A stretch of 38,716 bases of DNA from Bacteroidia bacterium (GTDB lineage: Bacteria; Bacteroidota; Bacteroidia; DATLTG01), in assembly GCA_039924845.1 (NCBI GenBank), contig JBDTAC010000005.1, forward strand, positions 1 to 38,716, read 5' to 3'. How positions within the stretch are numbered: position 1 is the first letter of the stretch; each line of letters opens with the position of its first letter. The notes beneath the pieces were generated by a model that was not told the DNA's origin, ran no database searches, and was given only the letters and a program-made list of their open reading frames with translations. Positions 23,394-25,057 of the stretch are shown here, in pieces. The position numbers and the translations under genes were made by a program.

Positions 23394-23584
23394 TTTTATT
23401 CTTTTTTTAACAGTATGTAAAAGTACAAAAATTACAGAAACCATTAATAATTGAAAATGATTTGAGAATTTACCAATTAGAAAATGTACAGATGTAACGA
23501 TTAAGACCTCAGCGTTGTGCGGGACTTGGTTCAGTATCTGCGCGAGGTTTTGGAATAGAAAAATAAAACTTTCAAAAAATAAAT

Positions 23585-23617
23585 TTGCTTTTAAAATAAT
23601 TTCTCCATTATCTTTGT
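23585..23617 (+). promoter_or_regulatory. Promoter of the hom leader transcript
   Basis: TTTG at 23585-23588 and TATCTTTG at 23610-23617 match the Bacteroidota -33/-7 elements with a 21-bp spacer. The start of transcription would be near 23623, about 20 nt before the leader peptide ATG. Confidence 0.7.
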
Positions 23618-23641
23618 TTTACAATTTTTGAATTGATACAA

Positions 23642-23713
23642 ATGAAATTGACTGCTTTTTATCCGATGAATACTGCTTACAGCGCCATGATGTGCTGCGA
23701 GATGTGTATTTAA
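23642..23713 (+). CDS. Met/Cys-rich leader peptide upstream of homoserine dehydrogenase
   Basis: This 23-codon reading frame starts 25 bp after the promoter and ends with AMMCCEMCI-stop. It has five Met (including the start), three Cys and two Thr. The controlling codons cluster at codons 16-22 (23687-23707), just before the stop at 23711-23713. The peptide is too short to fold, and its position fits an attenuator leader, where slow translation at Met/Cys codons reports a shortage of those amino acids. Homoserine dehydrogenase feeds both methionine and threonine synthesis. I know of no named family for this peptide. Confidence 0.7.
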   Translation: MKLTAFYPMNTAYSAMMCCEMCI

Positions 23714-23730
23714 TTTTCGGAAAAAGCGAG

Positions 23731-23753
23731 CTCAAAAAAATAATTTTTCAAAA
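23731..23753 (+). repeat. AT-rich element in the loop of the hom antiterminator
   Basis: CTC-A7-TAA-T5-CAAAA lies between arms 2 and 3 of the attenuator. Confidence 0.65.
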
Positions 23754-23787
23754 GGCTTTTCCGATAAAAAGGAAAAGCCTTTTTTTA
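23750..23787 (+). terminator. Attenuator terminator upstream of hom
   Basis: A perfect 9-bp stem GGCTTTTCC/GGAAAAGCC, extended by A/T pairs, has an 8-nt loop and is followed by eight Ts. It lies 64 bp before the hom ATG with no long gene in front of it, which fits a regulated terminator. Confidence 0.85.
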
Positions 23788-23818
23788 TTTCTAAATTTTA
23801 TACCGATCAAAAAAGCGA

Positions 23819-23842
23819 ATCAAAAAAATAATTTTTCAAAAC
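23819..23842 (+). repeat. AT-rich element just upstream of hom
   Basis: ATC-A7-TAA-T5-CAAAA lies 10 bp before the hom start. Confidence 0.65.
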
Positions 23843-23851
23843 AATAAAAAT

Positions 23852-25057
23852 ATGAACGAGAAAAAAATTTCAATCGGATTATTTGGCTTTGGCTGCGTTG
23901 GACAAGGATTGTACGATGTATTAAATCATTCGCAAGGTTTGCAAGCAAACATCGAAAAAATTTGCGTGAAAGATCGTAGCAAAAAAAGAAAAATAGATGC
24001 CTCGTATTTTACATTCGATAAAAAAGACGTGTTGCAAAATAAAAATTTGGACGTTGTTGTGGAGCTGATTGACAATGCGCAAGAAGCTTTTGAAATTGTT
24101 ACCGATGCACTCAGAAATGGCGTGAATGTGGTAACGGCAAATAAAAAAATGTTGGCAGAAAATTTTGAAGCCTTGTACAAATTGCAAGAAGAAAATAACG
24201 TGGCGCTTATTTACGAAGGCTCTGCAGGTGGCAGCATTCCTATCATTAGAAATTTGGAAGAATATTACGACAATGAATTATTGAGTAGCATAAAAGGTAT
24301 TTTGAATGGATCGTGCAATTATATTTTAACGCGCATGGAATTGGAAAATCTGTCGTATGAAAATGTATTGAAAGACGCGCAAAAAAATGGTTTCGCAGAA
24401 TCCGATCCGTGGTTGGATGTGGCGGGATATGATACGCTTTATAAATTGTGTTTACTCGCGGTTCATGCTTTTGGCGTGCTTTTAAAGCCGGAACAAGTAT
24501 TGGCTTTGGGCATTCAAAATATTAGTTACGATGATATTTTATATGCGAAAGAAAAAAATTTACGCATCAAATTAATCGCGAAAGCGTACAAAAAAGGAAA
24601 CAAATTTCATGTGTATGCTTTGCCGCATTTCGTTAATAAAAATAGTGAATTGTATACTGTTTTATACGAATACAACGCTGTGGAAGTGGAAGGCGCTTAT
24701 TCGTGCCAACAAACATTTGTAGGCAAAGGCGCAGGAAGTCATCCGACGGGAAGCGCCGTATTATCAGACATTTCAGCACTTACGTACAATTATAAATACA
24801 GTTATAAAAAGCTGAAAAAAGTACGTCAATTGTTGAATGGAAAATACAATGCGCAAGAATTATTGGAGAATGATTTTAACATCAAAGTGTACATTCGTTA
24901 TCAACACAAAGAAGAATTGAAAGCCTTGGAAATTGTTGCTATTGAAGAAGAATATACTTCTCCGAAAATGAAATACATTATTGCAGAAGTTAATTTGCAA
25001 TCGCTTTTTCAATTAAAAGGAAATAAAGAAAATAAGCTTTTTGTTTGCGCGGTGTAA
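23852..25057 (+). CDS. hom: Homoserine dehydrogenase
   Basis: The enzyme reduces aspartate semialdehyde to homoserine, the branch point to threonine and methionine. The 401-residue protein has the NAD(P)-binding GFGCVG at residues 12-17, a dehydrogenase core with VVTANKKML and EGSAGGSIPIIR, and the catalytic segment GFAESDPWLDVAGYDTLYKLC containing the expected Glu, Asp and Lys. It is not fused to aspartokinase. About 55 C-terminal residues may be a reduced ACT-like domain. It is a single-gene unit under an attenuator, and the next gene, ybeY, is convergent. Confidence 0.94.
   Translation: MNEKKISIGLFGFGCVGQGLYDVLNHSQGLQANIEKICVKDRSKKRKIDASYFTFDKKDVLQNKNLDVVVELIDNAQEAFEIVTDALRNGVNVVTANKKMLAENFEALYKLQEENNVALIYEGSAGGSIPIIRNLEEYYDNELLSSIKGILNGSCNYILTRMELENLSYENVLKDAQKNGFAESDPWLDVAGYDTLYKLCLLAVHAFGVLLKPEQVLALGIQNISYDDILYAKEKNLRIKLIAKAYKKGNKFHVYALPHFVNKNSELYTVLYEYNAVEVEGAYSCQQTFVGKGAGSHPTGSAVLSDISALTYNYKYSYKKLKKVRQLLNGKYNAQELLENDFNIKVYIRYQHKEELKALEIVAIEEEYTSPKMKYIIAEVNLQSLFQLKGNKENKLFVCAV

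Follow-up and report, generated by a model that had tools for sequence, protein, structure and literature searches.

The 38,716-nucleotide stretch of DNA analysed here (the window) comes from the genome of an uncultured member of the class Bacteroidia (2.66 Mb, 99.1% complete). Directly upstream of its homoserine dehydrogenase gene, hom, it carries an element that is very probably a ribosome-mediated transcription attenuator controlling that gene, and a member of a family of such elements at Bacteroidia sulfur and methionine genes. This assignment is directly supported by the anatomy of the element, its homology to elements in other genomes, the conserved content of its leader peptide and the conservation of two alternative pairings, between RNA arms 2 and 3 (2:3) and between arms 3 and 4 (3:4). 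The promoter-like site, the leader frame, the four arms and the terminator all lie between a minus-strand gene for an Mrp/ApbC-like ATPase and hom on the plus strand (Table 1).

Table 1. Coordinates of hom and of the leader element upstream of it, in window positions
Feature	Position	Strand	Evidence
Bacteroidota-type promoter-like site, TTTG-N21-TATCTTTG	23584..23616	+	Weak alone; backed by its repeated occurrence before leaders of the family
Leader ORF, 23 codons, MKLTAFYPMNTAYSAMMCCEMCI then stop; type A (control cluster near C-terminus)	23642..23713	+	Translation; C-terminal MMCCxMCI-stop recurs
Arm 1 (TGCTTTTTATCCGAT), within leader frame	23653..23667	+	1:2 energy -12.6 (E12), z -4.4
R2 covariance model match (R2 built solely from sulfite-reductase-linked elements)	23675..23791	+	79.3 bits, E = 4.1e-14
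Control codons Met16-Met17-Cys18-Cys19-Glu20-Met21-Cys22	23687..23707	+	Leader translation; family Met/Cys content
Arm 2 (TTCGGAAAAAGCG), pairs with arm 3 (antiterminator) or arm 1	23716..23728	+	2:3 energy -12.1 (E23), z -4.4
Arm 3, 5' half of terminator stem	23750..23762	+	Hairpin/complementarity analysis
Arm 4, 3' half of terminator stem, into T-tract 23780-23786	23771..23783	+	Hairpin/complementarity analysis
hom, homoserine dehydrogenase, 401 aa, apparently monocistronic	23852..25057	+	NF004976, 323 bits vs cut-off 205

An earlier note on this sequence had proposed the promoter-like site, the 23-codon leader frame and four alternative arms, and all of these are present. The promoter-like site stands about 25 nt 5' of the leader start codon; TTTG-type sites are expected 3.2 times per window by chance and two were found, while TAnnTTTG occurs within 100 nt upstream of 26 of 44 leader units of the family, against 5% in shuffles. 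The control cluster holds three Met and three Cys codons and runs on to Cys22, beyond the Cys19 at which the note had ended it. The terminator had been given as 9 bp with eight Ts; the perfect hairpin and its T-run are there, with the small difference that the stem measures 13 bp (23750-23762 / 23771-23783, 8-nt loop) and the run has seven Ts, beginning inside arm 4. The hairpin lies 65 nt 5' of hom. The arms are borne out by complementarity and by hairpin energies of -27.3 (1:2), -10.4 (2:3) and -18.9 kcal/mol (3:4); arm 2 begins 2 nt past the leader stop, and the 2:3 pairing joins 23714-23724 to 23757-23767 with 91% complementarity. The leader as a whole folds better than 200 of 200 dinucleotide shuffles (z = -4.2).

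Some further features of the window can be recorded here. The arm 1 segment 23655-23666 is also 92% complementary to 23760-23771, which covers the terminator loop and the start of arm 4, an extra alternative outside the standard attenuator model. A 32-nt direct repeat (81%) at 23721-23752 and 23809-23840 flanks the terminator with two copies of the arm 2/spacer region, which looks like a duplication of the spacer. Elsewhere, at 87-2135, a 682-aa frame of near-identical repeats (LAGKDYDNAKTNYTQASSLKPNEQYPKDKLAEI...) encodes a long repetitive protein.

The Homoserine_dh domain of hom is the sole copy in the source genome, in which threonine synthase was not found and no homoserine kinase scored above cut-off. 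Because of this, hom here most likely feeds methionine only, so the earlier note's placing of it at a metabolic branch point should be dropped for the source organism. Sulfite reductase was likewise not detected in this genome. The source genome has four further Cys/Met PLP-enzyme genes and a metX-like gene; a search within 1.5 kb of these found no Met/Cys leader with a terminator.

Directly upstream of hom in relatives there is one clear second case, at locus L008, and one partial case, at L011. The L008 leader reads MKLIGLHILNASNSTAMYCMMMRF followed by a stop, and its arm sequences differ from those of the window yet still pair 1:2, 2:3 and 3:4. Such cases are few because hom often ends an operon, and the signal emerged at operon heads. 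In many close relatives hom closes a sulfate-assimilation operon that includes a gene of the sulfite reductase family and, further on, what we take by eye to be a siroheme synthase-like gene and cysH, and many of these operons carry the same kind of element, a Met/Cys leader with a terminator, at their head. Relatives keep the terminator, the leader frame and arm 2 together; the earlier note had named retention of the terminator with loss of the frame or of arm 2 as the pattern that would speak against its reading, and the comparative evidence supports that reading.

The survey was anchored on sulfite reductase, whose gene is present in 94 of 395 genomes of the class. The best models for the protein belong to the NirA family and score below cut-off, so that the name ‘sulfite reductase’ rests on operon context. 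We applied a strict unit test, a frame with at least five Met plus Cys in eight codons that ends 5-90 nt before a terminator. By this test a unit was detected in 25 of 89 sulfite-reductase upstream regions and in none of their antisense strands, leaving 64 loci in the class with no detectable unit. Cys+Met ranked first among the 190 possible amino-acid pairs; it accounts for 25 loci, the runner-up pair for 12. When the terminator was waived, 28 frames were found in the real sequences compared with a mean of 0.05 in mononucleotide shuffles. Full units are present at 31 sulfite-reductase loci, which represent 15 family-level groups.

The leaders fall into two types. In type A, to which the window leader belongs, the frame closes with its control codons and arm 2 starts some 2 nt beyond the stop; type B leaders have a tail after the Cys run, and this tail contains arm 2. 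The distance from the last control codon to arm 2 has a median of 10 nt in both types. By the usual footprint of a ribosome, stalling on the cluster would leave most of arm 2 free, and a ribosome that has reached the stop would cover it. The C-terminal MMCCxMCI-stop of the window leader is also found in sulfite-reductase leaders such as those of L186 and L240. Overall, the control clusters contain 168 Cys and 106 Met, and Met fills 43 of the 55 non-Cys residues within Cys spans. Met is concentrated inside or flanking the Cys span when compared with the remainder of the leader (p = 4e-48); this value is descriptive, as the units are related and were partly picked for Met+Cys content. Several sulfite-reductase operons carry a type A and then a type B unit in tandem (e.g. 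L186, L192, L197, L202, L240 and L249). Four others (L171, L172, L173 and L259) have two tandem type B leaders, each with its own terminator.

Pairing was scored in 44 leader+terminator units, the terminator being a condition for scoring. The complementarity of arm 2 to arm 3 has a mean z of -3.2, and 84% of the units fall below -1.5. Because arms 2 and 3 are misplaced in the MAFFT alignment, covariation was read from it for the terminator only, and a swap test was used for these two arms. Own pairs of arms 2 and 3 average -14.1 kcal/mol against -9.8 for swapped pairs (z = -10), as co-variation under changing sequence predicts. Arm 1 is strong in the window and in L008 (z -3.1) but not in most relatives (family mean -0.5), and it finds no support as a family-wide element.

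The covariance model R2 was trained on 14 sulfite-reductase-linked type A units, with the hom elements excluded. Applied blind, it found the window element (Table 1) in a match that includes the leader codons, as well as L008 (E = 2.9e-11); in a whole-genome search the window element scored E = 8e-13. Across the 395 class genomes R2 matched, besides the sulfite-reductase operons, elements before other sulfur and methionine genes: MKAINFYKLISSYNMMCCMMCCD and similar leaders precede APS kinase in ten genomes, and others precede a TauE/SafE-like permease (MHNSATHTLNTISSTMMCCMMCF) and O-acetylhomoserine sulfhydrylase (MKNKITMMCCMMGNENYVKA). R2 also matched Cys-rich leaders in front of a 2-oxoacid:ferredoxin oxidoreductase. 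NCBIfam names were obtained for hom, one APS kinase, O-acetylhomoserine sulfhydrylase and 2-oxoacid:ferredoxin oxidoreductase. The remaining APS kinases were named by similarity to the first, and the permease, which has no NCBIfam match, is presumed to be TauE/SafE-like from its sequence, by eye. Ten of the new APS kinase, TauE-like and metY-type units could be scored, giving z values from -0.8 to -5.4, and in most of these arm 2 starts 2-7 nt after the stop. The predicted arm 2 is present in most new units outside the kor ones.

Matches at E of about 1e-6 to 1e-4 are mixed, and several lack Met/Cys leaders (L281, L285, L286 and L289). A second match in the source genome (C73, E 4e-5) was rejected as a terminator without a Met/Cys leader. 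A phylum-wide sample added only two matches with E of 1e-5 or lower: one was a false positive, the other a Thr leader preceding thrA in another Bacteroidia genome. This Thr leader, at L310 (G674, C1:209381-209481), reads MNFIITTTTISTTTTISSCRKVCL, and its terminator lies 12 nt before the start of an aspartokinase-type thrA. R2 gives it 53.8 bits; part of the R2 score therefore reflects general attenuator architecture and not Met/Cys identity. The score hints that this leader and the sulfur leaders have architecture or ancestry in common, and the phylum may have matching leaders for its threonine and methionine branches.

Two other sets of leaders deserve mention. In L297, L298 and L309 (genomes G354, G192 and G245), Cys-rich leaders with the endings MACMCCIFSVCGNCF, MACMCCKFCTCGDCF and MMAMCCKYTTCGICF, each with a terminator, precede the alpha gene of 2-oxoacid:ferredoxin oxidoreductase, an iron-sulfur enzyme system. 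In these leaders arm 2 may be encoded by the CGxCF tail. In L288 (G380, C1:6141-6256) a Met-rich leader, MKMEQTLRNMNIKHCYMINKMMMCRYMSKIRCRRM, with a terminator precedes the ATPase gene of what we take, by eye, to be a MetN-like methionine ABC transporter.

The window element combines a leader rich in the product amino acid, an intrinsic terminator, an antiterminator 5' arm just past the control codons, and conservation of both content and pairing. Met is the pathway product and Cys the sulfur donor. From this arrangement we infer leader translation, stalling, read-through and the identity of the sensed amino acid, as follows. RNA polymerase would start near 23622 and transcribe the leader, with a ribosome following on the 23-codon frame. 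With ample charged tRNA-Met and tRNA-Cys, the ribosome would reach the stop, its front edge over arm 2, so that 3:4 would pair and transcription would terminate before hom. With either charged tRNA scarce, the ribosome would stall at Met16-Cys22, leaving arm 2 free and holding arm 1 apart; 2:3 would then pair and hom would be transcribed. If the leader were left untranslated, arm 1 would pair with arm 2 and the terminator would form. The 2:3 hairpin of the window is much weaker than 3:4 and 1:2, so antitermination would have to rely on co-transcriptional kinetics.

At the level of the family, we consider it likely, with less assurance than for the window element itself, that several family-level lineages of the Bacteroidia run a sulfur regulon (the sulfite reductase operon, APS kinase, O-acetylhomoserine sulfhydrylase, a sulfur permease and hom) by Met+Cys attenuators. 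In many sulfate-assimilation operons the tandem A (Met+Cys) and B (Cys-run) units, each with a terminator, would form a two-input Met/Cys gate, and the window lineage, with no detected sulfite reductase, would have placed a type A unit directly on hom. Alternatively, only cysteine, or only methionine, might be sensed, the other residue being kept by codon or RNA fit or by shared ancestry. The excess of Cys over Met in the control clusters and the existence of leaders that consist almost entirely of Cys, such as those of L171 and L172, fit such a reading, but we hold it to be unlikely, given the proportion of Met among the non-Cys positions of Cys spans, the first rank of Cys+Met among all pairs and the equal numbers of Met and Cys in the window cluster.

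The other explanations are much less probable. The leader could control translation of hom or act as a trans-acting peptide, and precedents can be cited: mycobacterial Cys-rich leaders have no clear terminators (PMC1262725) and have been described as translation attenuation (PMC13236596), and trans-acting leader peptides are known (PMC7298713). We regard this as improbable here, since a terminator and T-tract follow the leader in the window and in 44 of 44 scored units (where a terminator was required for scoring) and arm 2 pairs with a terminator arm. That the hairpin is an ordinary terminator between divergent genes, with a leader frame arising by chance, is more improbable still: similar A/T-flanked hairpins do occur near other genes of the source genome and the upstream gene is on the opposite strand, but the blind R2 match covers the leader codons, the antisense strands yielded nothing and the complementarity of arm 2 is conserved. 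Least probable of all is control of hom by an S-adenosylmethionine (SAM) riboswitch or a T-box, with the small frame accidental. SAM riboswitches do regulate methionine genes across many bacteria, but Rfam finds only a tRNA in the window and nothing at six relatives' loci, on which ground we rejected this candidate, and both the leader frame and its richness in Met and Cys are seen again in many lineages.

In the enterobacterial thr, his and trp attenuators a short leader frame carries the control codons, an antiterminator and an intrinsic terminator exclude each other, and the position of the ribosome is the sensor. The Met/Cys family shares this design and differs in its Met and Cys codons, its sulfur and methionine genes, its Bacteroidota-type promoter, the frequent lack of arm 1 and the frequent tandem arrangement of two leader+terminator units. 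The S-box (SAM) riboswitch fills the same physiological role, control of methionine and sulfur genes by premature termination, but there SAM is sensed directly by the RNA, whereas the window element has no Rfam match and sensing by translation is proposed. Polycysteine leader ORFs without conserved terminator hairpins have been predicted upstream of mycobacterial cysteine and sulfur operons (PMC1262725), and PMC13236596 refers to them (citing Canestrari 2020) as translation attenuation. They share Cys-run peptides upstream of sulfur genes with our family; however, they are leaderless Cys-run uORFs, whereas the window has an intrinsic terminator, an antiterminator arm, Met alongside Cys and a promoter-like site about 25 nt 5' of the start. 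In Rhodobacterales, uORFC-8-2 upstream of cysS also combines tandem Cys codons with an intrinsic terminator (PMC8632094), but in another phylum, at another gene, with two Cys codons and no Met reported. Within the same phylum, attenuation has been inferred upstream of amino-acid biosynthesis operons of Flavobacterium psychrophilum (PMC9723704), in a paper whose main text names no amino acids or Met/Cys leaders; further general hints of attenuation in Bacteroidota are given in PMC7366714. We found no report of a Met/Cys leader family in the open-access literature. The kind of mechanism is known, and the Met+Cys pair, the gene set, the tandem design and the phylogenetic home provisionally appear to be new.

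The R2 model offers a practical means of annotating this regulon, with 2-oxoacid:ferredoxin oxidoreductase and the MetN-like transporter as possible new targets. Most described cases of leader-peptide attenuation concern Trp, His, Thr and the branched-chain amino acids, with Cys in a few groups. Joint sensing of Met and Cys, if true, would give the Bacteroidota a means of sulfur control without a dedicated repressor or riboswitch, and the tandem A and B units would constitute a testable two-amino-acid logic gate. For the organism studied here, a Met/Cys attenuator, if true, would explain how a lone methionine-pathway hom is tuned.
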